In this document: one piece after another, positions 1-16,017 of the stretch
Position numbering within the stretch: position 1 is the stretch's first letter
Layout: each line of letters opens with the position of its first letter
Assembly (NCBI RefSeq): GCF_032598905.1
Contig: NZ_CP122458.1
Span: 3,596,001-3,660,000 of the forward strand
Direction: 5' to 3'
Source of the DNA: Streptomyces sp. 11x1
GTDB lineage: Bacteria > Actinomycetota > Actinomycetes > Streptomycetales > Streptomycetaceae
Length of the DNA stretch: 64,000 nt
Notes under the pieces: generated by a model
Databases searched by the model: none
What the model was told of the DNA's origin: nothing
Seen by the model: the letters and a program-made list of their open reading frames with translations, nothing else
Position numbers and translations under genes: made by a program

Positions 1-1172
1 ACCGGCTTGCTGGGCTCGATCTGGTTGACCCAGCCGATCACGCCACCGCCGACGTGGACCGCGTCGGCGAAACCGGCCGACTTCAGGACCGCGAGGACTT
101 CCGCACTGCGGACACCCGTCTTGCAGTGCAGGACGATCTTCTTGTCCTGCGGGAGGGCCTCCAGGGCGGTGCCCATGAGGAACTCGTTCTTCGGGATCAG
201 CTTGGCGCCCGGAATGGAGACGATCTCGTACTCGTTGATCTCGCGGACGTCGATGATCTCGATGTTCTCGCCGTCGTCGATCCACTCCTTGAGCTGCTTG
301 GGAGTGATCGTCGAGCCGGCGGCCGCCTCCTGGGCCTCCTCGGAGACGACGCCGCAGAAGGCCTCGTAGTCGATGAGCTCGGTGACGGTGGGGTTCTCGC
401 CGCAGACGGCGCAGTTGGGGTCCTTGCGGACCTTGACCTGGCGGTACTGCATCTCCAGGGCGTCGTAGATCATCAGGCGGCCGACCAGCGGCTCGCCGAT
501 GCCCGCGAGGAGCTTGATGGCCTCGTTGACCTGGATGGAGCCGATGGACGCGCACAGCACGCCCAGGACGCCGCCCTCGGCGCAGGAGGGAACCATGCCG
601 GGCGGCGGGGGTTCCGGGTAGAGGCAGCGGTAGCAGGGGCCGTGCTCGGCCCAGAAGACGGAGGCCTGGCCGTCGAAGCGGTAGATCGAGCCCCACACGT
701 ACGGCTTGTTCAGCAGCACGGCCGCGTCGTTGACCAGGTAGCGGGTCGCGAAGTTGTCCGTCCCGTCGACGATCAGGTCGTACTGGCTGAAGATGTCCAT
801 CACGTTCTCGGCCTCGAGCCGCTCTTCGTGGAGGATCACGTTCACGTACGGGTTGATGCCGAGGACGGAGTCACGGGCGGACTCGGCCTTGGAGCGGCCG
901 ATGTCGGCCTGGCTGTGGATGATCTGGCGCTGCAGGTTCGACTCGTCGACCTCGTCGAACTCCACGATGCCGAGCGTCCCGACGCCCGCCGCGGCCAAGT
1001 ACATCAGCGCCGGCGAGCCCAGGCCGCCGGCGCCTACACAGAGCACCTTGGCGTTCTTCAGCCGCTTCTGCCCGTCCATCCCGACATCGGGGATGATCAG
1101 GTGGCGGGAGTACCTGCGGACCTCGTCTACGGTGAGCTCGGAAGCGGGCTCGACCAGGGGTGGCAGCGACAC
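1..1172 (-). CDS. moeZ: MoeZ-type adenylyltransferase/sulfurtransferase (3' end just off the window)
   Basis: E1-like enzyme that adenylates the C-terminal glycine of small sulfur carriers (ThiS, MoaD, CysO families) and then thiolates it, feeding molybdopterin, thiamine and cysteine-type sulfur pathways. About 390 residues are visible, so only the last few codons are missing. The N-terminal ThiF/MoeB domain shows the nucleotide-binding GAGGLGSP motif, and the zinc ligands are the pairs CYRC and CAVC. The C-terminal rhodanese domain carries the active-site cysteine in HCKTGVRS. The GTG at 1172 opens VSLPPLVEPASELTVDEV, the usual family N-terminus. It follows the polysaccharide-type cassette on the same strand but has its own SigR-like promoter just upstream. 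Family assignment is firm. Confidence 0.95.
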   Translation of the reverse strand, partial: MSLPPLVEPASELTVDEVRRYSRHLIIPDVGMDGQKRLKNAKVLCVGAGGLGSPALMYLAAAGVGTLGIVEFDEVDESNLQRQIIHSQADIGRSKAESARDSVLGINPYVNVILHEERLEAENVMDIFSQYDLIVDGTDNFATRYLVNDAAVLLNKPYVWGSIYRFDGQASVFWAEHGPCYRCLYPEPPPPGMVPSCAEGGVLGVLCASIGSIQVNEAIKLLAGIGEPLVGRLMIYDALEMQYRQVKVRKDPNCAVCGENPTVTELIDYEAFCGVVSEEAQEAAAGSTITPKQLKEWIDDGENIEIIDVREINEYEIVSIPGAKLIPKNEFLMGTALEALPQDKKIVLHCKTGVRSAEVLAVLKSAGFADAVHVGGGVIGWVNQIEPSKP

Positions 1173-1216: not shown

Positions 1217-1242
1217 AACACTGCCACGCCCTTTTTCATTCC
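1217..1242 (-). promoter_or_regulatory. SigR-type promoter upstream of moeZ
   Basis: On the minus strand the sequence reads GGAAT (1242-1238), exactly 18 bases, then GTT (1219-1217). This is the GGAAT-N18-GTT consensus of the Streptomyces thiol-oxidative-stress sigma factor SigR. Transcription would begin near 1210, giving a leader of roughly 40 bases before the moeZ GTG at 1172. The -35 box overlaps the stop codon of the preceding gene, so moeZ can be transcribed independently of the cassette upstream. A sulfur-carrier enzyme fits the known SigR regulon. Confidence 0.8.
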
Positions 1243-1985
1243 GAGACACCCGTCCCAATCAGCGAGACGACTTCGTCCCAGTAGCCGGGCATCGTCTCCC
1301 AGGGGTCGATCCTCCCGTGGCGGTCGGTGCGGTCCGTGACGTAGATCGTGGCGGCACCCTGCCAGCGGGCGATCCGCAGCGCCTCGTCGAGGTGGCCGCG
1401 CGGGACGCCGTGGACGAAGTGGCAGAAGCGCTCGGGGGGATGGTCGGCGGTCCATTCGGCCACCTGCGACCACCGGTAGTCGCTCCAGGGGCCGGCGAAG
1501 GTCACCAGTTGGTCGGCGATCTCGACATACCCGGGATGCGGATGGGTGCCATGGCCGAGGACGACGTGGCCGCCGCCGAGGAGGGCACGGAGTGTGGTGA
1601 CCGCGCGGCCGGTCTCGGCGAGGGAGCCGCGCTCGGTGGGACAGCGGTCCAGGAGGAAGCCGTCGACGAGGTACCAGTCGAGATAGCGGCGGGCGTCGGC
1701 GGCGATCTCGGCGAAGGCGCGCGCCCCGAAAGTCATGTCCACCCGGCCGAGGACCTGGACGCCCGCGTTCCGCAACCGTCCGGCGGCCTCCAGACAGTGC
1801 CGGTCGGGACGGGTGCCGGGGCCGTCGGAGACGTCGAGGGCAACCCAGTGCAAGGGGGTGCCGGGGCGGGTGAGTTCGCCCCATTCCAGTGGAGCGACGA
1901 GGGGGTGGGCATAGCCGGGGACGCCGATGCCCTGGCTTAAGCCGGTGCGGGCGATGCCCGAGGGGGCGGGGGTCAGATACGGCAT
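1236..1985 (-). CDS. Spherulation-specific family 4 (spherulin-4) protein
   Basis: A 249-residue protein of the spherulin-4 family, related to the TIM-barrel glycoside hydrolase-like domain found in exopolysaccharide proteins such as PelA. Seen directly: an N-terminal GVPGYAHPLV strand, acidic strand ends in LDVSDGPG, GRVDMTFGARAF and WYLVDGFLLDRCP, and a conserved GVPRGHLDEAL near residue 200. No signal peptide or membrane segment is evident, so secretion is not supported by this start. Its start overlaps the end of the epimerase gene by 13 bases, indicating translational coupling. Activity on an alpha-1,4-linked amino sugar polymer is an inference from family and neighbours only. Confidence 0.85.
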   Translation of the reverse strand: MPYLTPAPSGIARTGLSQGIGVPGYAHPLVAPLEWGELTRPGTPLHWVALDVSDGPGTRPDRHCLEAAGRLRNAGVQVLGRVDMTFGARAFAEIAADARRYLDWYLVDGFLLDRCPTERGSLAETGRAVTTLRALLGGGHVVLGHGTHPHPGYVEIADQLVTFAGPWSDYRWSQVAEWTADHPPERFCHFVHGVPRGHLDEALRIARWQGAATIYVTDRTDRHGRIDPWETMPGYWDEVVSLIGTGVSE

Positions 1986-2932
1986 GCCGCCTCCATCCAG
2001 ATGTCGGCGAGGGACTCCTCCAGGTTGATGCGGGGCCGCCAGCCGAGCCGGTCGCGGGCGGTGCGCACATCGGCCTGCTGCCAGCTGCCGCAGCCGTCCG
2101 GGTAGGGGTAGGAGACGGGCACGGTGTGGTCGGGCTCGGGGCGGGGGTGGCCGATGGTCGACCTGAGGGGGTTGGGCGGGGCGTCCAGTTCGTGGAGGGC
2201 TCCCCCGTAGCCGGCGACGCGGGCGAGGACGGCCGCGGCGTCACGGAGGCGCACGGCGCGGCCCGAGCCGATGTTGATCACGCCTTGGGCGGCGGAGAGC
2301 GAGGCGGCGTGGACGGCGCGGGCGACATCGCGTACGTCGACGAAGTCGCGCTGGACGCCGAGGCCGCCGAGTTTGAGTTCGCCGTCGCCGGACTGCATGG
2401 CGCGGCGCATGGCTTCGGCGAGACGGCCGAGCGGGGAGCCGGCGGGCGTGCCGGGGCCGGCGGGTGAGAAGACCCGCAGGACCACGGCGTCCAGGCCGGA
2501 GCCGAGGACGAGTTCGGTGGCGGCGAGCTTGCTCACACCGTAGGGGCCGCCGGGGCGGGGCACGGCGTCCTCGGCGGTGGAGGACCCGGGCTGGCTGGGA
2601 CCGTACTCCGCGCCGCAGCCGAGCTGCACCAGACGTGCCCCGCAGCCGCTGCGGCGCAGGGCCTCGCAGACGGTGGCGACGGCGACGGTGTTGTGCCGGG
2701 TGAGTTCGCGGGCGCCGCCCCGGGTGGCGCCCGCGCAGTTGACGACCACTCCGGGGTGGACGGCGTCCAGGAAGCGGGTGAGCGCGCCGGGGCTGCCGGT
2801 GGCGAGGTCGAACCGTACGTCGGCGTCGTCGCCGCGGCCGAGCGCGGTGAGTTGGACGGCCGGGTCGGCGAGCAGACGTTCGGCGACGAAGCGGCCGAGG
2901 TATCCGTTGGCTCCGATCAGCAGGACCCTCAT
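1973..2932 (-). CDS. NAD-dependent sugar epimerase/dehydratase
   Basis: A 319-residue extended short-chain dehydrogenase/reductase. Seen: the Rossmann motif GANGYLG at residues 7-13, a conserved VNCAGAT strand, the catalytic YGVSK (YxxxK) near residue 135, and an RDFVDVRDVARA segment typical of nucleotide-sugar epimerases. The likely role is making a UDP- or dTDP-sugar for the neighbouring glycosyltransferase; the exact sugar cannot be read from sequence. The ATG at 2932 is chosen because MRVLLIGANGYLG is the normal start of the fold and GGGAG lies about seven bases upstream. Much longer upstream reading frames have no family similarity. It overlaps the spherulin-4 gene by 13 bases. Confidence 0.88.
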   Translation of the reverse strand: MRVLLIGANGYLGRFVAERLLADPAVQLTALGRGDDADVRFDLATGSPGALTRFLDAVHPGVVVNCAGATRGGARELTRHNTVAVATVCEALRRSGCGARLVQLGCGAEYGPSQPGSSTAEDAVPRPGGPYGVSKLAATELVLGSGLDAVVLRVFSPAGPGTPAGSPLGRLAEAMRRAMQSGDGELKLGGLGVQRDFVDVRDVARAVHAASLSAAQGVINIGSGRAVRLRDAAAVLARVAGYGGALHELDAPPNPLRSTIGHPRPEPDHTVPVSYPYPDGCGSWQQADVRTARDRLGWRPRINLEESLADIWMEAACRI

Positions 2933-2976
2933 CGGGCGGCTCCCGGGGCGGGCTCTCCGGTTCGGGTGGTGATCAT
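2929..2976 (-). CDS. Candidate 15-codon leader ORF coupled to the epimerase
   Basis: A short frame, MITTRTGEPAPGAAR, starts at an ATG (2976) eight bases after a strong AAGGAG. Its TGA overlaps the epimerase ATG as ATGA. The arrangement is typical of translational coupling and would put ribosomes directly on the epimerase start. It may instead be the remnant of an N-terminal extension that lost frame with the epimerase. There is no homology evidence; the call rests on the ribosome binding site and the overlap. Confidence 0.4.
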   Translation of the reverse strand: MITTRTGEPAPGAAR

Positions 2977-3129
2977 CTGGCGTTCTCCTTATGGGGTGGT
3001 GCCGGGGGTGCTGAGGTGGCCCGCAGTGTCGGCCCCGCGGGAAGGGACGTCCGGGACGGAAGCCCCGTGCGTCGATCGGGCTCGGACTTCGCGTGGCGGT
3101 GTATGGCCGTGGTGCGAAGCCCGAGGGCG

Positions 3130-4374
3130 TCAGGTCGCCCCGGGGGGCAGGGCGTGGGCCGAGGCCCGGGTGAGCGTGCGGGTGGCGTGGACGAGCAGGG
3201 TGAGCGCGACGGCGCCGCACACGAGCGCGGGTACGGCCGCGGGACCCCAGGCGCGGGCGATCGTCTCGACGGGGGCGGCCAGGAAGGAGCAGCCGGGCAG
3301 GTGGCTCGCGAAGACCGTGCCCAGCGCGACCGCCTCGGCCAGCGCGGCTGCGCGGAGGGCGACCACCGGGGCCTGGGAGAAGCCGTGAGCGATGAGGAGA
3401 CGCGCGAGCAGCAGGAGCGCCCCGAGGGCGGCGGCGCCCGCGTACTCGGTGGGCTCGTCCAGGACCGCCCCGCACAGCGCCAGCAGGGCAGCCAGGGCAC
3501 CGAGGTGGAGTGCGGACACACCGAGGATCAGGGGCTTCATGGACTCCGCGAACTCCGCGAGGCCGCGGCTGTTGCTGAGTTTGCGGCGGGCCCGTGCGGA
3601 GAGGAGGTGGGCGCACCAGACGGCGGGAGCGCAGGACAGGGCGAGCGCGAGTACGGGGGCGACGGCCAGGGGCCAGAGGCCGTGGGGCCCGCCTGTGAGT
3701 CCGGCGGTGAGCAGGCCGTCGCCGAGAAGGGCATAGGCGATGAGCCAGCACGTCCAGGTGCGGGTGCGGCCCGCGGTGCCGGACGGTGCGCGCAGTGGAC
3801 CCCGGTCGAGTGCCGCACGGAGGCCGAGCGCCACCGCGAGGGCGCCGAGGGCCGCGGCCACGAGACGGGGTTGGCCGTCGGTGAGCCGCACTCCGGCGAC
3901 GCCCGCCGCGCACAGGGCGCCCGGCAAGAGGGCGAACACGGCCCAGCCACGGCGTGCGCCGGGCGCGCTCGGCACCGGCTCCCGCTCCGTGGGTTCCTCC
4001 CCGTCGCGCGACACACGTGCATACATCTCCTCGGCGAGCGAGAACACGTCGCGGTGCCGGAAGCGGGCTGCCGTTCGGTCGGTCACCCCGTGGGCCTCCA
4101 GCCCGGCGGCGATCTCCAAGGGGTCGACCGCCCGCTCGCAGAGTTCCCGGTGCCGGTGCATCAGGGCCTTCACGGGGTCCACGGCACCGCGCCGGGGAGC
4201 TGACCGGGGTGCGGCCTCGGGCGGGGCAAGGTCGTCGTCCACCCGGAGCGCAGGACCGGGCGGGGCGACGAGGTCCCGCGAGGCCAGGGGGTCGCCCGAA
4301 GTCACGGCCTCCGGCGGGAGCTTCGCATCGCACCCGTCCAGCCCGTCCAGTCCGTCCAGCCGCAGCTCGCTCAT
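3130..4374 (-). CDS. Polytopic membrane protein of the polysaccharide cassette
   Basis: A 414-residue protein with a soluble N-terminal third and about eight hydrophobic helices after residue 140 (for example WAVFALLPGALCAAGVAGV and PALVCGAVALTLLV). The soluble part holds a conserved-looking stretch, HRELCERAVDPLEIAAGLE, followed by VFSLAEEMYARV. I do not recognise a named family. Its position directly after a PelF-like glycosyltransferase, with a 4-base ATGA overlap (start 4374, glycosyltransferase stop 4371), suggests it acts with that enzyme, perhaps in polymer export as PelG does. That is inference; similarity to PelG is not visible by eye. A longer frame upstream of 4374 lies inside the glycosyltransferase gene and is a shadow. 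Confidence 0.8.
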   Translation of the reverse strand: MSELRLDGLDGLDGCDAKLPPEAVTSGDPLASRDLVAPPGPALRVDDDLAPPEAAPRSAPRRGAVDPVKALMHRHRELCERAVDPLEIAAGLEAHGVTDRTAARFRHRDVFSLAEEMYARVSRDGEEPTEREPVPSAPGARRGWAVFALLPGALCAAGVAGVRLTDGQPRLVAAALGALAVALGLRAALDRGPLRAPSGTAGRTRTWTCWLIAYALLGDGLLTAGLTGGPHGLWPLAVAPVLALALSCAPAVWCAHLLSARARRKLSNSRGLAEFAESMKPLILGVSALHLGALAALLALCGAVLDEPTEYAGAAALGALLLLARLLIAHGFSQAPVVALRAAALAEAVALGTVFASHLPGCSFLAAPVETIARAWGPAAVPALVCGAVALTLLVHATRTLTRASAHALPPGAT

Positions 4375-6656
4375 CGCGCCCCCTCCCCCGCGGGCACCGG
4401 CTCCCCGACGGCGGGGACCGACTCCTCGGCGGTGACAGCCGAAGGCTCCTCGACAGCCCGCACCGAGCCCGCAGCCGACGTGGCCGCCGCTGCCGCTGCC
4501 GCTGCCGCCTGAGCCGTGCGCGGGGCCGAACCCGTGGCCGCTGCCGGCTCCGTGGTCGCAGCCGAGGCCGTGGCCGCCGCCGAGGCCGTGGCCGCCGCCG
4601 AGGCCGTGGCCGCCGCCGAGGCCGTGGTCGCCGCCGAGGCCGTGGCCGCCGCCGAGGCCGTGGTCCCAGCAGCCGAAGTCCCGCCCGTCAGCAACGCCGC
4701 GTCCGGCCCCGGCGCCCGGCTCCGCCCAGGCATCCCGTCCCGCCCGGACAGCACGTCCCGGCCCGACGTCGTAGCCCGCACGGGCGAGCCAACCGCCCAC
4801 CGTGGCCTTCCGACGGCACCCCCGCCCGGCCCCACCGCACCGGCGCCCGCCGCCGCGGCCGCCGAAACCCCCGCCCCGCCGGCAACCCCAACGACCCCGG
4901 CGACTCCCGCGACCCCAGCCACTCCCGCACCCCCGAGGCCACCCGCCATCGGGCGGGACTCGGTCCAGCGGCCGGGGACGTGGGACTCGGCAGGGGACCC
5001 GAAGGGCAGTGGTCCACCGGTGTCGTCGAGGACGATCCTGTGCACGGGGGCGTGGGAGACGATCTCCAGGTAGATGCCACGAAATGCCGCGACGTTCTGC
5101 TCCACCGTGAAGAGTTCGAGAGCACGGGCGCGGGCGGCCGCGCCCAGGCGCGCACGGCGCTCGGGTTCACGCAGGAGCGCCACGCACGCTTCGGCGAGCG
5201 CCCGCGGATTGCGCGGGGGGACGACGAGCCCGGTGCCGCCGATGACCTCCACGACCGCCCCCACGTCGGTGGAGACGGTGGGCCGACCGCAGAACATGGT
5301 CTCGACCAGACTGATCGGGAAGCCCTCGACCACACTCGACAGCACGACCACCGCCCCGGCACCGTACGCCTCGGCCAGGTCGGGAACGGCCGGGTCACCG
5401 ATCTCCTCGAAGGAGACGGGGTGGTCGCCAACCGCGTGGACACCGTCCGCCTCGTCGGGGAAGAGCTGCGCGGCGAGGACCTTGCAGTGGCCCAGATAGG
5501 CGGTGGCCTCGGCCCCCGCGGCCGCTCCGACGATCCTGAGCCGCGCCCTCGGCTCGGCCCGCCGGACCTCGGCGAAGGCATGCAGCAGCGAGATCAGGTC
5601 CTTGGCGGGCTCGATGCGGCCCACCCACACCAGCGTGTGGGGGTCCGCGCACTCCGGCGACTCGCCCACCTCGGCGAAGCGGGCGGCGTCCATGCCGGGG
5701 TAGACCGTACGGATCTTGGCTCGGTCGGCGCCGCAGCGCTCCTGCCAGCGGCGGGCATGGGTGTTGCCGGGGGTGAGGCAGGCGGCCCGCCGGTACACCT
5801 CCGCCGTCAGCCGCCGGTGGAAGGCCGCGAGGAGCGCGCGTACCGGCGCCTCTCCCGAGGTCCCGAGGTAGTGCGCCCGTAGCGGCACGCCGTACTCGGT
5901 GACCAGGAGCGGCACCCCGTGGAAGTGACGGGCCAACAGTCCGGGCAGCGCGGCCGACCCGCCCGCCGCCGCATGGCACAGGTCGACGGCGCCGAGCCCG
6001 TCGTCCTCGTACCAGTCGAGCGAGAGGGGGCGCAGGGCGCGTTCGAGATGCGAGGCGACCGTCAGCAGATCCGGGACGCGAGCCTCGCGCGCCCCTCGCA
6101 GTGCGCCCGGCGCGCGACAGGCGCGCTCCAGCGTGCGGACGGCGGCCTCGGAACGCAGCGCGCCGACGAGTCCGCCCTCGTCCCGGGCCAGTTCGGCAAG
6201 CCCGTACAGCGCGTTGCCGAAACGGTCCGCCTCAGCACCGGCCGCACCATCGAGACCATCCACGGCGGGACCGTCGAGGCCCTTCGCGACCGCCCCTTCG
6301 AGGACCGTTCCGGTCACACCTCCGATCCCGCCCGCAGTTCCGACCCCGCCCGCTCCGCCGGCTCCCCCCGAACAGACAGCCGCCACCAGCTCCCCGTACG
6401 CCTCAGCGAAGCGCCTTCGCGCGCGTCGGCCATGGACGATCCCGTCGTCCTCGGCCGTCCACAGCGGGGCCGTGCGGACCCGGCGGACCTGTGGCGGCAG
6501 CGGGATCCAGCCCTCGTCCTCCTGCCGCTCGCTCCGGCTGAGCGCGTAGACGTCGAACTCGTGTCGCTCCAGCCCACGTACGAGTCGGTCGCACCAGAGC
6601 CTGGCGTCACCGCTCACATACGGATAGCCACCCTCCGTAAGCAGTCCGATGCGCAC
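4371..6656 (-). CDS. PelF-like glycosyltransferase family 4 (DUF3492) with low-complexity tail
   Basis: Cytoplasmic retaining GT4 enzyme, expected to transfer sugar from a UDP-sugar. The N-terminal DUF3492 signature RIGLLTEGGYPYVSGDARLW is characteristic of PelF and its relatives. The GT-B C-domain shows VWVGRIEPAKDLISLLHAF and the EX7E motif in EGFPISLVE. From about residue 560 the protein becomes an unusual Ala/Gly/Thr-rich tail of about 190 residues, including hexapeptide repeats of the type TASAAA. Start: the GTG at 6656 immediately opens the conserved signature; an ATG at 6764 would add 36 unconserved residues. It heads the cassette and overlaps the membrane-protein gene by 4 bases. Confidence 0.88.
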   Translation of the reverse strand: MRIGLLTEGGYPYVSGDARLWCDRLVRGLERHEFDVYALSRSERQEDEGWIPLPPQVRRVRTAPLWTAEDDGIVHGRRARRRFAEAYGELVAAVCSGGAGGAGGVGTAGGIGGVTGTVLEGAVAKGLDGPAVDGLDGAAGAEADRFGNALYGLAELARDEGGLVGALRSEAAVRTLERACRAPGALRGAREARVPDLLTVASHLERALRPLSLDWYEDDGLGAVDLCHAAAGGSAALPGLLARHFHGVPLLVTEYGVPLRAHYLGTSGEAPVRALLAAFHRRLTAEVYRRAACLTPGNTHARRWQERCGADRAKIRTVYPGMDAARFAEVGESPECADPHTLVWVGRIEPAKDLISLLHAFAEVRRAEPRARLRIVGAAAGAEATAYLGHCKVLAAQLFPDEADGVHAVGDHPVSFEEIGDPAVPDLAEAYGAGAVVVLSSVVEGFPISLVETMFCGRPTVSTDVGAVVEVIGGTGLVVPPRNPRALAEACVALLREPERRARLGAAARARALELFTVEQNVAAFRGIYLEIVSHAPVHRIVLDDTGGPLPFGSPAESHVPGRWTESRPMAGGLGGAGVAGVAGVAGVVGVAGGAGVSAAAAAGAGAVGPGGGAVGRPRWAVGSPVRATTSGRDVLSGRDGMPGRSRAPGPDAALLTGGTSAAGTTASAAATASAATTASAAATASAAATASAAATASAATTEPAAATGSAPRTAQAAAAAAAAATSAAGSVRAVEEPSAVTAEESVPAVGEPVPAGEGAR
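4561..4665. repeat. 18-bp tandem repeat in the glycosyltransferase tail
   Basis: The unit gccgaggccgtggccgcc is repeated five times with at most one substitution (4561-4650), followed by a partial sixth copy. It is in frame with the glycosyltransferase, adding six residues per unit, so copy-number change would not disrupt the gene. The regularity suggests replication slippage. Confidence 0.9.
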
Positions 6657-6871
6657 GCGTGCACCCCCGATCTCCCGTTTGAGGAGCCGCCGTTCGCCCG
6701 GCGGCCCGCAGCGGGACGAACGTATGCGGACAAGGCGGTGGCGCGACGGACGGTTGTCCATCACGCCACCAAAAGGGGTGAACGGTCGTAACTTTCGCTA
6801 GCGGTACGCGTTTTGTCGCGCTAAGAGATCACTTGGTCACTCCGCGTCGAACGACGACACGGAGTGACCCG

Positions 6872-8614
6872 TCAACTCCCCGGGTAGGGCCAGGGATTGG
6901 CCTTGCATGTGATCCCGCCGAAGGTCAGGAACTTGCTCTGCTGCTGCATGACCGGCGCGAGTTCGCCGTTCTTGTCGCAGGTCTCATGGTCGTAGCCGAG
7001 ACGGTGACCGATCTCGTGATTGATCAACATCTGTCGGTACGCGCGCATCTCGTCGCCGTACGTCTCAGCGCCCTGCGCCCAGCGGTACGCGTTGATCATC
7101 ACGCGCTCGGTGGCGGCCGAGTCGCAGGACACGTTGTCCACGGTGGTGTCGAGGCCCGACTTGGCGCACCAGATCGCGGTGGTACCCGGGCTCGCGAGCG
7201 TGATCACGAAGTCGGGGGCCCCCGAGGAGATCCGCTCGAACGTACGGCCGCCGCCGTGGGCCCAACTGCGGTCGTCGTTCAGGGTCTTCTGGACGGCCTC
7301 GGCGAACAGCTCCGCTTCGAGTCCCAGGCCCTTCTCGACGTCGACCCGGTAGCGGTACTTCTGTCCCGTCCCCGGCGCCTTGTCGAGGCCCCTGACCGCC
7401 TCGAACTTTCCGCCGCCCTCCAGATCCGCGGCAAGCGGGTACTTCTTGTCCATCTTCTGGTCGTACGACAGCGGGGTCGCGGTCGGGCTGGGAGAAACAG
7501 GAGGGGTGGGCCGGTTGTCGCTGCGCGAGGCGTCGCGCACGGCACGGTCGCCTGCGTCAGCGGCCTGCGGCTGCCGAGTGACGGTGTCGTCCTCCCCGAC
7601 GGCCATCTGCCCGCCCACGACGACCACGAGCACGGTGGTGACCGCGGCCGCCGCGATCCCGGTGAACGCCCGCCCCTTGCCACCCTTCGCCGTCCCCGCG
7701 GCCCCGGTCCCGTCGCCCGGCGGCCGCTCGTGCGGCGGCTCTTGCGGCGACCGCCCGCGCGGCGGTTGCTCCTGCGGAGCCGTCTCGGCCCAGCCGTCGT
7801 CGGCACCCGGCGCGCCACGATGGGTCCGGCCGGGTGCGAAGACGTCGTCGACCTCGTCGAAGGCGTCCAGATAAGCCTGGCGGGGGCCACCGGGGGGCAT
7901 GGTCTCCTGCCGCTGCCGGGGAATGGGGATACGACGGCCCGAACCCTCCGGAGGCACGCCGTACGGGGCGCCATGGGGTGACGCCTCGCCCGGCCCACCA
8001 TACGGAGCCCCCGCGGGCGGCCCCTGCGCCACGCCGTGTCCGACACCCGGCCCGCGCCGACCACCACCCAAGTGGCCCCAACCCCCGCCCGCTTCACGCT
8101 GCTCGGGGTGCTCCCCACGACTCGACGGACGACCGCCGTCCTCGGCACCGTCCGAAAGACGCGGGAAGCCGTGCGCGGGCGTGCCGTCGGGGAGGCGAGG
8201 AAAACCGTGCGCCGGGGTGCCGTCCGCGTATCGCGGTACGCCGTGTGCCGGTGTGCCGTCGGGCAGACGCGGGAAGTCGTGCGCGGGCGTGCCGCCGGCG
8301 AAACGCACCCCCTGCTGCCCGGGCGCACCACCACCGAACCGCGGCGCGCCCTGCTGCCCAGGCCCACCACCGCCGAATCCCGGCCTGTCCTGACCCGGTA
8401 GACCCTGCCCCGGAAGCCCTTGCCCCGACGTTGTGTCGTACCCGTACCCCGGGCCCCGGGTCCGCGCGCCTCGGGGCTCCTCCGCGCCGGGCACTCGCGG
8501 AGGCGCCGCCGCGCGGTCGCCCGGCCCGGCGGACGTCGCCGTCCCGGCTGTCCTTATATCGACATCACTTGTGTCGCCTCTCGGCGCCCGCCCCTTGCGG
8601 CTGTGCCGTCCCAC
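6872..8614 (-). CDS. Membrane-anchored DUF3152 putative metalloprotease
   Basis: A 580-residue protein in three parts. The first about 330 residues are Pro/Gly-rich and probably disordered, and include four 12-residue repeats of the form DGTPAHGFPRLP. One transmembrane helix (GIAAAAVTTVLVVVVGGQMA) follows. The C-terminal extracytoplasmic DUF3152 domain carries INHEIGHRLGYDHETC, a zinc-metalloprotease HExxH-like motif in which Glu-Ile-Gly is kept and a third His is present. Substrate unknown. GTG start at 8614 opens the conserved VGRHSRKGR. Its GAGG ribosome site lies near the 3' end of the hydrolase gene only 8 bases upstream, so the two form an operon. I recall Rv3207c as the mycobacterial equivalent. 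Confidence 0.88.
   Translation of the reverse strand: MGRHSRKGRAPRGDTSDVDIRTAGTATSAGPGDRAAAPPRVPGAEEPRGARTRGPGYGYDTTSGQGLPGQGLPGQDRPGFGGGGPGQQGAPRFGGGAPGQQGVRFAGGTPAHDFPRLPDGTPAHGVPRYADGTPAHGFPRLPDGTPAHGFPRLSDGAEDGGRPSSRGEHPEQREAGGGWGHLGGGRRGPGVGHGVAQGPPAGAPYGGPGEASPHGAPYGVPPEGSGRRIPIPRQRQETMPPGGPRQAYLDAFDEVDDVFAPGRTHRGAPGADDGWAETAPQEQPPRGRSPQEPPHERPPGDGTGAAGTAKGGKGRAFTGIAAAAVTTVLVVVVGGQMAVGEDDTVTRQPQAADAGDRAVRDASRSDNRPTPPVSPSPTATPLSYDQKMDKKYPLAADLEGGGKFEAVRGLDKAPGTGQKYRYRVDVEKGLGLEAELFAEAVQKTLNDDRSWAHGGGRTFERISSGAPDFVITLASPGTTAIWCAKSGLDTTVDNVSCDSAATERVMINAYRWAQGAETYGDEMRAYRQMLINHEIGHRLGYDHETCDKNGELAPVMQQQSKFLTFGGITCKANPWPYPGS
8161..8304. repeat. Four 36-bp tandem repeats in the DUF3152 gene
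   Basis: Four consecutive, diverged 36-base units (8161, 8197, 8233, 8269) encode the 12-residue repeats PDGTPAHGFPRL in the disordered cytoplasmic region. Divergence is moderate, so they are older than the helicase and glycosyltransferase repeats in this window. Confidence 0.8.
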
Positions 8615-13034: not shown

Positions 13035-13443
13035 GCAGCGCACAATAGCCCGCTCCGCGCAAGGCGGAAGGGCCCGGTCATTCGGTGCGCCATTCAGTGT
13101 GACGACGACTACGTGACCAAATCGGCCATCGCATATGCGCGATTCCGAGGTATGGTGGTAATGCGCCTGCTGGTACCGCGACGTAGTTCGACGCGGCCTC
13201 GACAGGCCGCACGCATGAGGATGCCCGGTCGGTGGCCCGATCGGCTCCGACCCGACAGCCCTCCTTTTCCGTACGGCACTCCGCGTACGGCGTCCGGAGG
13301 GAACCCCTCAGCGGTATGAGCGCTAGAGCGTCGGCAGTGGTCCCGTGCCACACGGCCCGCCCGTGCGGTGGCCGACGTCCCCGGCACGGTCCGACACGAC
13401 CCCCGCGCTCGCCTCACACCGCGTACACAGAAGAGGCAGCACC
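13035..13443. other. Divergent 409-base region ahead of the helicase
   Basis: Contains the promoters of the ferritin-like gene and the helicase. The part nearest 13100-13160 is relatively AT-rich. No gene with coding character was found. The long distance to the helicase start would give a long 5' leader, as is common for cold-inducible DEAD-box helicases, but no specific element is identified. Confidence 0.5.
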
Positions 13444-16017
13444 CTGACTACGACTTTCCGCGATCTCGGCATCTTTCCCGAGACGGCCGAGGCCCTTGAG
13501 GCCGTCGGCATCATCAGCCCCTTCCCCATCCAGGAGATGACGCTCCCGGTCGCCCTCTCCGGCACCGACGTCATCGGCCAGGCCAAGACCGGCACCGGCA
13601 AGACGCTGGGCTTCGGTCTCCCCCTCCTCGAACGCGTCGTCGTCCCCGCCGACGTCGAGGCCGGCCGCGCGAAGCCCGAGGACCTCGTCGACTCGCCGCA
13701 GGCGCTCGTCGTCGTCCCCACGCGCGAGCTGTGCACCCAGGTCACCAACGACCTGCTGACCGCCGGCAAGGTGCGCAACGTCCGCGTCACCGCGATCTAC
13801 GGCGGCCGCGCCTACGAGCCCCAGGTCGAGGCCCTCAAGAAGGGCGTCGACGTCGTCATCGGCACCCCCGGGCGCCTCCTCGACCTCGCGGGCCAGAAGA
13901 AGCTGAACCTCAAGAACGTCAAGTGCCTGGTCCTCGACGAGGCCGATGAGATGCTCGACCTGGGCTTCCTGCCCGACGTCGAGAAGATCATCAACATGCT
14001 TCCGGCCCGCCGCCAGACGATGCTGTTCTCGGCGACCATGCCGGGCGCGGTCATCGGCCTCGCCCGCCGCTACATGTCCCAGCCGACGCACATCCGTGCC
14101 ACGGCCCCGGACGACGAGGGCGCGACGGTCCGCAACACCTCGCAGCACATCTACCGCGCGCACAACATGGACAAGCCCGAGCTGGTCGCGCGCATACTGC
14201 AGGCCGACGGCCGGGGACTGGCCATGGTCTTCTGCCGCACCAAGCGCACGGCCGCTGACCTCGCCGACCAGCTCAAGCAGCGCGGCTTCGCCTCCGGCGC
14301 GGTCCACGGCGACCTCGGCCAGGGCGCCCGCGAGCAGGCGCTGCGCGCCTTCCGCAACGGCAAGGTGGACGTCCTCGTCTGCACCGACGTCGCCGCACGC
14401 GGCATCGACGTCGAGGGTGTCACCCACGTCATCAACTACCAGTCCCCCGAGGACGAGAAGACGTACCTGCACCGCATCGGCCGTACGGGCCGCGCGGGGG
14501 CCAAGGGCATCGCGATCACCCTCGTCGACTGGGACGACATCCCGCGCTGGCAGCTCATCAACAAGGCGCTGGACCTCGGGTTCAACGACCCACCGGAGAC
14601 GTACTCCACGTCCCCGCACCTCTTCGAGGAACTGAGCATCCCCGCGGGCACGAAGGGTGTCCTGCCGCGCTCCGAGCGCACCCGTGCCGGTCTGGACGCG
14701 GAGGAGCTGGAAGACCTCGGCGAGCCGGGCGGGCGTGGTCCACGCGGGCGTGGCGGCCGTGGCGCCGGTGCTTCCGGCCCGTCGTCCGTCGAGCGGGAGC
14801 GGGAGCGCCCGGCGCGTACGCCGCGTCGCCGCCGGCGTACGCGCGGTGGTGCCACCGTCGACGGGGCGTCCCCGGAGGCCGCCGCGGTCACCGAGCCGTC
14901 GGCAACGCAGACGCCGGACTCCGACTCCGGCGCGTCCGAGCCTCGTACGCCTCGCCGTCGCCGCCGCACGCGTGCCGGGGTGAACCCGGCCGCCGAGGCC
15001 GTGATCGAGACCGAGACCGTCGAGAGCGCGCCGGTCGAGCGGGCGGAGGCCGTGGTCGACACCGTCGCGCCCGCCGAGTCGATGGAGGAGGCTCCCAAGC
15101 CGCGTCGCCGTCGTACGCGCAAGTCGGTGGAGACCGCCGCCACTCCGGCGGCCGAGGCCGCGCCCACCGCGGAAGCGTCGCTGGACACCGCTGAGGGCAC
15201 TGCTGTCGTGGAGCCGGTCGTCGAGCCGGCCGCCGAGGCCGTTACCAAGCCGCGTCGCCGTACGCGCAAGGTCGCCGCGCCCGCCGAGGTCGTGAGCGAG
15301 GAGGCCGCCGCCGAGGAGGCACCTGCCAAGCCCCGCCGACGGACCCGGAAGGCTGCCGAGCCGGTCGTCGAGGCGACCGACAGCGCCGCCGAGGCCGCCG
15401 TGGACACCGCCGAGGCTGCGGCCAAGCCGCGCCGCCGGACCCGCAAGACCGTGGCGGAGGCTGCCGAGAGCGTGGTCGAGGCTGTCGCCGAGGAGGCGGT
15501 GGTCGAGGCTCCGGCCGCGGCCCCGCGTCGTCGGACCCGTAAGGCGGCGGCCGCCGTCGTGGCTCCTGCAGCCGAGGCCGCGGTCGACACGGCCGAGGGG
15601 GCGACCGGCGTCGAGCCGGCCGCCGAGGCCGTTACCAAGCCGCGTCGCCGTACGCGCAAGGTCGCCGCGCCCGCCGAGGTCGTGAGCGAGGAGGCCGCCG
15701 CCGAGGAGGCACCTGCCAAGCCCCGCCGACGGACCCGGAAGGCTGCCGAGCCGGTCGTCGAGGCGACCGACAGCGCCGCCGAGGCCGCCGTGGACACCGC
15801 CGAGGCTGTGGCCAAGCCGCGCCGCCGGACCCGCAAGACCGTGGAGACGGCTGAGGGGGCGGTGCCCGCGCAGCCGACGGAGGAGCAGGCGACCAAGCCG
15901 CGGCGTACGCGGAAGGCGGTGGCTTCGGCTGCTGCCGAGGAGGCGGGGGCCGAGGCTCCTGCTCCGCGGCGGCGTACGCGGAAGGCTGTGGCTGTGGTGG
16001 AGGGTACGGAGGGCTGA
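13444..16017 (+). CDS. DEAD-box RNA helicase with long basic repeat tail
   Basis: An 857-residue RhlE/CsdA-type helicase. Motifs in order: Q motif FPIQEMTLP, Walker A AKTGTGKT, PTRELC, DEADEM, SAT, and HRIGRTGRAG. The core ends near residue 420. The remaining half is an Ala/Glu/Val-rich chain with 12 short basic boxes of the form KPRRRTRK, which should bind RNA nonspecifically. The likely start is a CTG at 13444, seven bases after AAGAGG, opening LTTTFRDLGIFPETAEAL where family similarity begins; the ATG at 13345 would add 33 unconserved residues. Likely roles are ribosome assembly or mRNA turnover under stress. The tail contains a recent internal duplication. Confidence 0.92.
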   Translation: MTTTFRDLGIFPETAEALEAVGIISPFPIQEMTLPVALSGTDVIGQAKTGTGKTLGFGLPLLERVVVPADVEAGRAKPEDLVDSPQALVVVPTRELCTQVTNDLLTAGKVRNVRVTAIYGGRAYEPQVEALKKGVDVVIGTPGRLLDLAGQKKLNLKNVKCLVLDEADEMLDLGFLPDVEKIINMLPARRQTMLFSATMPGAVIGLARRYMSQPTHIRATAPDDEGATVRNTSQHIYRAHNMDKPELVARILQADGRGLAMVFCRTKRTAADLADQLKQRGFASGAVHGDLGQGAREQALRAFRNGKVDVLVCTDVAARGIDVEGVTHVINYQSPEDEKTYLHRIGRTGRAGAKGIAITLVDWDDIPRWQLINKALDLGFNDPPETYSTSPHLFEELSIPAGTKGVLPRSERTRAGLDAEELEDLGEPGGRGPRGRGGRGAGASGPSSVERERERPARTPRRRRRTRGGATVDGASPEAAAVTEPSATQTPDSDSGASEPRTPRRRRRTRAGVNPAAEAVIETETVESAPVERAEAVVDTVAPAESMEEAPKPRRRRTRKSVETAATPAAEAAPTAEASLDTAEGTAVVEPVVEPAAEAVTKPRRRTRKVAAPAEVVSEEAAAEEAPAKPRRRTRKAAEPVVEATDSAAEAAVDTAEAAAKPRRRTRKTVAEAAESVVEAVAEEAVVEAPAAAPRRRTRKAAAAVVAPAAEAAVDTAEGATGVEPAAEAVTKPRRRTRKVAAPAEVVSEEAAAEEAPAKPRRRTRKAAEPVVEATDSAAEAAVDTAEAVAKPRRRTRKTVETAEGAVPAQPTEEQATKPRRTRKAVASAAAEEAGAEAPAPRRRTRKAVAVVEGTEG
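15219..15844 (+). repeat. 236-bp direct repeat inside the helicase tail
   Basis: Bases 15219-15454 and 15609-15844 are identical except for one C/T difference (15419 versus 15809). The offset is 390 bases, exactly 130 codons, so the duplication is in frame. The near-identity points to a recent unequal crossover. The tail could expand or contract by recombination without breaking the gene. Confidence 0.95.

Follow-up and report, generated by a model that had tools for sequence, protein, structure and literature searches.

Gene content of the cassette

We analysed a 64-kb window (G000:C1:3596001-3660000) of the 10.67-Mb genome of Streptomyces sp. 11x1, in which a cassette of four minus-strand open reading frames (ORFs) encodes a PelF-type glycosyltransferase, a membrane protein (MEM), a short-chain dehydrogenase/reductase (SDR) and a spherulin-4 protein (SPH). 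An initial annotation of this DNA had read these genes as a Pel-like exopolysaccharide cassette, and its description of four same-strand genes overlapping by 4 bases between PelF and MEM (4371-4374) and by 13 bases between SDR and SPH (1973-1985) was exact. The cassette sits between a DUF3152 gene on its upstream side and moeZ on its downstream side (Table 1). The terminator-like inverted repeat after the DUF3152 gene, in a region (6833-6871) where the Rfam family F6 scores weakly (21.3 bits against a gathering score of 46), suggests that the cassette is a separate transcription unit.

Table 1 Features of the cassette and its flanks in the 64-kb window.
Feature	Position	Strand	Basis
moeZ (ThiF + rhodanese), downstream flank, clipped by the window start	1..1172	-	Pfam; downstream side in 40/40 loci
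SPH, spherulin-4/GH135-fold protein without catalytic Glu (putative pseudo-hydrolase)	1236..1985	-	Pfam Spherulin4, E = 1.4e-22
Extended SDR, nucleotide-sugar epimerase/4-ketoreductase type	1973..2932	-	Pfam NAD epimerase, E = 8e-37
Short ORF MITTRTGEPAPGAAR, stop overlapping the SDR start (ATGA)	2929..2976	-	ATG start and ribosome-site-like motif
MEM, reduced membrane protein, 414 aa, conserved N-terminal helical domain	3130..4374	-	8 membrane helices in model
PelF-type GT4 glycosyltransferase, remodelled active site, long Ala-rich tail, GTG start	4371..6656	-	Pfam DUF3492 + GT1; NCBIfam
Ribosome site GGGGGTG, can pair with leader CACCCC	6662..6668	-	Minimum free energy (MFE) fold
Leader TTCACCCC; 15-bp hairpin with AACC loop (6737-6770), second hairpin (6683-6707)	6683..6782	-	
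AACG-N16-GTTAC, promoter-like, fixed spacing	6788..6812	-	40/41 loci
Inverted repeat after DUF3152, terminator-like	6835..6869	-	Sequence, by eye
DUF3152 gene, upstream flank	6872..8614	-	Pfam, E = 1.7e-60; within the fetched stretch in 22/40 loci

Distribution in Streptomyces

Among 101 Streptomyces genomes, DUF3492 was found in 96 and the spherulin-4 family PF12138 in 72. We chose 40 loci (type A) by a window-type DUF3492 match, so that PelF was present by selection, half of them with and half without a PF12138 match nearby. All 40 contained SDR and moeZ, 39 contained SPH (all except L074) and 38 contained MEM (all except L061 and L071); tblastn recovered SPH in 19 of the 20 loci picked for having no Pfam spherulin-4 match nearby. 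A check independent of PelF, used a spherulin-4 alignment (A4) against 296 genomes of the class; of the 31 genomes matched, 26 belonged to the 28 listed from the same genus and five did not. SDR, SPH and moeZ stood together on the returned locus in 24 of these 28, and in 25 when G067 (in L070) is added; G428 and G509 had a PelF-MEM-SDR-moeZ form without SPH, and only a type-B SPH (see below) was seen in G552. The co-occurrence of the four genes across Streptomyces, which the initial annotation had proposed as a check, held in both samples and exceeds chance, and the presence of the cassette across this genus and its sister genera ruled out a strain-specific insertion. In the open-access literature, we found neither a published function for this widespread locus nor a paper combining PelF, Streptomyces and spherulin, and four S. 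coelicolor gene numbers presumed to belong to this region likewise gave no paper.

A complete paralogous operon in the same genome

The same genome encodes a second, eight-gene operon (L006:5728-15333, at ~10.0677-10.0773 Mb of G000:C1) with, in order, an Agd3-like deacetylase, PelF, MEM, a 4,6-dehydratase, a sugar nucleotidyltransferase, SDR, SPH and a GH114 protein, the four genes shared with the window being in the same order. Over the aligned part, the window and L006 proteins are 42% (PelF), 40% (SDR) and 43% (SPH) identical, and the two MEM share an N-terminal stretch of 39% identity and are homologues in a profile comparison (hhalign 99.5%). The GH114 protein is well supported (E 1.6e-85) and appears by eye to be a lipoprotein, and the dehydratase is LegB-like, with 452 bits for a cut-off of 475. 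The first protein of the operon, Agd3/CE18-like, scored 17.3 bits with Pfam Agd3_CE, under the cut-off of 27.6, and had no PDB sequence match; we call it Agd3-like from its gene context and from DD and HxxxH motifs recognised by eye. Nine fetched loci have genes as in L006 (type B), although GH114 escaped detection in four of them, L081 gave just a short match to it and the deacetylase of L083 is fragmentary. Eleven others (type C) all contain deacetylase, PelF, MEM and SPH, accompanied by GH114 in six. The nucleotidyltransferase, dehydratase and SDR of L006 and type B possibly form a nucleoside diphosphate (NDP)-deoxysugar route beside the polymer genes.

By comparison with L006, the window cassette is devoid of dehydratase, nucleotidyltransferase and GH114 as well as of deacetylase, and it would need the substrate of its SDR from elsewhere. 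Searching the window locus (L007) and the 40 type-A stretches by tblastn with the L006 Agd3-like protein gave no match, and none of the four window cassette proteins matches a deacetylase profile in Pfam. L006 has the full Agd3/galactosaminogalactan (GAG) set (deacetylase, GH114, glycosyltransferase and MEM), of which the window cassette has only the last two. A type-B or type-C PelF (best E below 1e-50) occurred in 50 of the 96 DUF3492-positive Streptomyces genomes. The other 46, including G009 with a broken type-C-like match elsewhere, have no complete-type PelF match (best E never below 1e-40), which suggests that the cassette does not depend on such a PelF.

Bamford et al. (2020, PMC7229062) consider bacterial agd3-containing operons to be related to the fungal GAG cluster. 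These operons combine a glycosyltransferase and a polytopic membrane protein, as in the window cassette, with spherulin-4 in some Actinobacteria. L006 resembles them in its Agd3-like protein, glycosyltransferase, MEM, spherulin-4 and GH114, whereas the window cassette has neither deacetylase nor GH114, shows changed SPH and PelF residues and possesses a leader of its own. Relative to the fungal cluster uge3, sph3, gtb3, agd3 and ega3 (PMC4817252), the window cassette has no agd3 or ega3 counterpart, no Sph3 catalytic Glu and a separate membrane protein. Finally, the Gram-positive pelDEADAFG operon (Whitfield et al. 2020, PMC7112168) shares with the window cassette a PelF-family glycosyltransferase and a membrane protein of possible MOP type, whereas the deacetylase, a sequence-recognisable PelG and the GGVS/TEHG motifs are missing from the cassette. 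Pfam named none of the four cassette proteins PelD or PelE, no PelD or PelE profile having been searched. The 'Pel-like' label of the initial annotation stands as far as kinship with Pel/GAG systems is concerned; its nearest kin, however, are operons of the Agd3/GAG type, including the L006 operon of this genome, and not pelDEADAFG.

Altered proteins of the cassette

The PelF assignment was confirmed by Pfam (DUF3492, E 5e-27) and by NCBIfam NF038011, which the window protein passes with 104.9 bits for a cut-off of 100 (173.1 for the L006 paralogue); no PDB sequence matched it at 1e-10. PelF measures 511 to 782 aa among type-A loci, and the C-terminal tail of the window type (about 4371-5000) is long and Ala/Gly-rich with TASAA-like repeats. 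As reference we used columns invariant in 28 of 28 relatives (26 PelFs from type-B, type-C and complete operons, and two PelFs beside a PelG). None of 42 window-type PelFs keeps the second Gly of GGVS (40 have Glu or Asp; kept in 1 of 12 in sister genera), the last Arg of LRER or the Asn of VYNG. The window protein itself reads G-D for GG and Tyr for the TEHG His, without the GGVSxW loop and His, and keeps EX7E. In window-type PelFs, the second Glu of EX7E is present in 42/42, the first in 41/42, the Arg in 37/42 and the Lys in 40/42. The EX7E, Arg and Lys residues bind the donor in PglH (PMC5792488). The loss of residues invariant in relatives led us to reject an ordinary Pel polymerase for this PelF.

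SPH has the Sph3 (beta/alpha)8 fold and, by eye, no signal peptide. The GH135 catalytic pair is printed as Asp196/Glu222 (PMC12054363); we took the printed Asp196 as Asp166, which gives a spacing of 56, near the 58-69 of the other families listed there. Glu222 is found in 0 of 41 Streptomyces SPH copies and Asp166 in 29, the window having Asp and Ala, and the loss of the catalytic Glu led us to reject an active hydrolase. We gave no weight to Glu167, a position that is also variable in type-B and type-C copies. Nevertheless, 59 columns are invariant in 39 SPH sequences.

Window MEM is shorter and has fewer predicted helices than its homologue in Agd3-type operons (L069, with a run of N, was dropped from helix counts and from alignments A1 and A3). 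It is not recognisably PelG, as the initial annotation had stated, and has no Pfam match at E<=1; its model suggests a resemblance to MOP-type flippases, with 8 helices versus the 12 of the MATE/MurJ-like fold, so a match to an unrelated transporter family, which that annotation would have counted as a refutation, is not shown either. Foldseek gave no useful match, and Pfam found no family common to more than 2 of 21 type-B and type-C membrane proteins. Of 198 genomes from the phylum, two scored above the PelG (PF16933) cut-off, with no Streptomyces among them; the source genome gave a single match under the cut-off, outside the cassette (25 bits versus 29).

The SDR appears the best preserved component. 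Its YxxxK and GxxGxxG motifs are intact in 41/41 loci, and the nearest PDB entry is a GDP-6-deoxy-D-lyxo-4-hexulose reductase (2pk3, E 1.3e-19). In eight type-A pairs that we chose, dN/dS was below 0.5 for all four genes, with 0.14-0.28 for PelF and SPH and 0.006-0.12 for SDR, versus 0.25-0.29 for type-B SDR (two pairs). The short ORF upstream of SDR is present in 41/41 type-A loci, with 12 to 60 codons and a variable sequence, a count that has no chance control; its overlap with the SDR start looks like translational coupling.

A candidate structured leader upstream of pelF

In 40 of 41 type-A loci (the region is garbled in L044), pelF is preceded by AACG-N16-GTYAC, TTCACCCCTT and then a hairpin with an AACC loop and a stem of at most 15 bp. 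The first of these motifs resembles an extracytoplasmic function (ECF)-sigma promoter. The GGGGGTG ribosome site is likewise present in 40/41 loci. The leader occurs once in the source genome, even with up to three mismatches allowed, 126 bp before pelF; in sister genera, it was recognised by pattern in 11 of 13 loci, L189 having a diverged copy. A pattern scan returned at least 119 stretches, all 80 listed ones being Streptomyces. Among the matches listed, PelF followed the leader in 113 of the 115 testable (four lay too near an end), most often at 126 nt (56/113). Rfam gave 0 matches at gathering score in the 64-kb window, and nothing close to that score near the leader.

The leader alignment A5 comprised 34 of 39 leader references (without L049, L058, L059, L061 and L064; L050, containing N, was also dropped) plus L241, L245, L250, L192 and L196, with 36 of 39 rows distinct. 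In it, pairing is kept in 95.4% of the cells, and both partners have changed in 15, versus 5.5 in shuffles (0/500 as high). The partner of UUCACCCC in the MFE fold (z -3.3) is the ribosome site GGGGGUG, so the leader CACCCC can, in this model, cover the pelF ribosome site and output is probably set at translation. Alternatively, the leader might be a regulator palindrome acting as DNA operator and not as an RNA structure, a possibility that we regard as doubtful. In its favour, palindromic operators covary too, the leader lies just downstream of the promoter-like motif and it persists in G578, a genome lacking the pelF ribosome site; however, G.U-type pairs exceed A.C-type mismatches (61 versus 15) at five pattern-free stem positions of the at least 119 related sequences, which is suggestive only, and the pairing of CACCCC with the ribosome site also speaks for RNA.

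The DUF3152-moeZ junction in related genera

Spherulin-4 matches were found in 47 of 61 Streptomycetaceae genomes, and strong window-like scores (>=288 bits) in 17 of 51 genomes from other genera, of which 14 were fetched (G606, G612 and G615 were left out). PelF, MEM, SDR, SPH and moeZ occurred in this order in 12 of these 14 loci, with DUF3152 within reach in four; L201 had only SDR-SPH-moeZ and the last one, from genome G584 (L202), contained a complete operon. This operon lies between DUF3152 (L239:4007-4561) and moeZ (L240:11888-13057), separated from the former by ~14 kb of unread DNA and from the latter by 2.5 kb. In the PelF tree (82 rows, quick search without bootstrap, midpoint root on the branch to two Pel rows), the window-type sequences, 42 from Streptomyces and 12 from other genera, form one clade (SH-aLRT 100) on a stem of 0.76 changes per site, and G584 is its sister (99). 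Given this complete operon at the junction and the sister position of its PelF, the window cassette probably arose there by reduction of such an operon. An incomplete copy of the leader also stands in G584, ~485 nt ahead of the match to the deacetylase, as would be expected if the leader stayed while the genes behind it were lost. The SPH of L194 keeps the catalytic Glu and would represent an intermediate.

The proposal that the cassette occupies a conserved junction was borne out by loci where DUF3152 and moeZ are directly adjacent, namely all six loci of family f3 (L133-L138), L184, L185 and L187 (with a moeZ match of only 51% in the latter), and five genomes of the sister genera g255 and g258. 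In L186, 2.2 kb separate the two genes. The remaining 15 of the 19 non-Streptomyces loci showed no moeZ close to their DUF3152 gene, which may be a paralogue. Loci L207, L208 and L253-L371 served only in the tests for which they are named.

In some Streptomyces (L188, L250 and L251), an additional ~6 kb separates DUF3152 from PelF. Farther along the window, an ORF of 890 aa (13345-16017, +) resembles DEAD-box helicases, its C-terminal part consisting, by eye, of many PRRRTRK-type repeats.

Proposed reduction and repurposing of an Agd3/GAG-type operon

The sequence comparisons make it very likely that the cassette originated from a complete Agd3/GAG-type operon once located at the DUF3152-moeZ site. 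We propose that it is a reduced and repurposed descendant with the following mechanism, a combined reading that we advance tentatively, at somewhat less than an even chance. The SDR would make one modified nucleotide sugar, which PelF, having kept the donor-binding residues and lost the loop and His of its relatives, would transfer, as a sugar or short glycan, to a different and probably membrane-bound acceptor. The small MOP-like membrane protein would anchor or move the product, the dead spherulin-4 would serve to bind, not cleave, the sugar or the complex, and the leader CACCCC would cover the pelF ribosome site, setting output at translation. An ordinary deacetylated amino-sugar polymer is an unlikely product, and a repurposed glycan-transfer module or pseudoenzyme complex fits the gene content and residues better.

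Several observations count against this proposal. The TEHG His is kept in 5 of 42 window-type PelFs (Tyr in 37, and the His in 0/12 in sister genera). No leader was found in L201, L301 and L341 have a leader without a PelF match, and in the slide control of A5, double-sided change appears at the +3 shift too (4 pairs, 5 cells). SPH is gone in L074, L241, L244 and L245, with 115-368 bp from SDR to moeZ; PelF and SPH were not detected in L242, nor PelF, MEM and SPH in L243 (G578), which has only the leader, the short ORF and an open SDR frame (L243:12841-14043) with an insertion of ~100 residues unlike the family. In L246 (G571), moeZ was not seen and the DUF3152 gene may be a paralogue.

The absence of the catalytic Glu from SPH in 41/41 despite a kept fold and 59 kept columns, together with a PelF that retains the GGVS Gly in 0/42 and the His in 5/42 under continuing purifying selection, would also suit a non-catalytic complex in which PelF, MEM and SPH are pseudoenzymes serving as sensor, scaffold or cell-envelope regulator and the SDR is the sole enzyme. 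We consider this rather unlikely, since PelF keeps EX7E and mostly the donor-site Arg and Lys, needless for a pure scaffold. Slow decay, with leader and SDR alone still useful and PelF, MEM and SPH as remnants, would account for the SDR dN/dS being far below that of the other genes and for the erosion series at the junction, from loss of SPH to loss of detectable PelF as well (L242), to leader, short ORF and SDR only (L243) and to nothing left (L216, L218 and L221-L223); it appears improbable given the dN/dS of PelF and SPH in the eight pairs and the invariant SPH columns. Still less probable is the working minimal Pel-like machine producing a surface amino-sugar polymer, as the initial annotation had it. 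The PelF score above its family cut-off, the MOP-like model of MEM and the intact SDR motifs agree with it, but this polymer claim is not supported, given the missing deacetylase and GH114, the SPH without catalytic Glu and the PelF without residues invariant in its relatives, and in about half of the genomes no PelF of complete type points to the missing parts.

Returning to the reduced and repurposed descendant, it is plausible, if still tentative, that a whole exopolysaccharide machine was disabled where it stood and became a core module of Streptomyces, with a glycosyltransferase of rebuilt active site, a dead GH135, a shortened flippase, an ultra-conserved SDR and a single-copy structured leader, not in Rfam 15, able to hide the pelF ribosome site. 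The locus offers a candidate structured leader that is single-copy in the source genome, and it cautions against labelling PelF plus spherulin-4 loci in Streptomyces as biofilm polymer genes. If our reading is true, the complete form (G584), intermediates (L194 and L201), the common reduced form and empty sites would all exist within one family, making the diversion of a whole polysaccharide pathway to a new use traceable.

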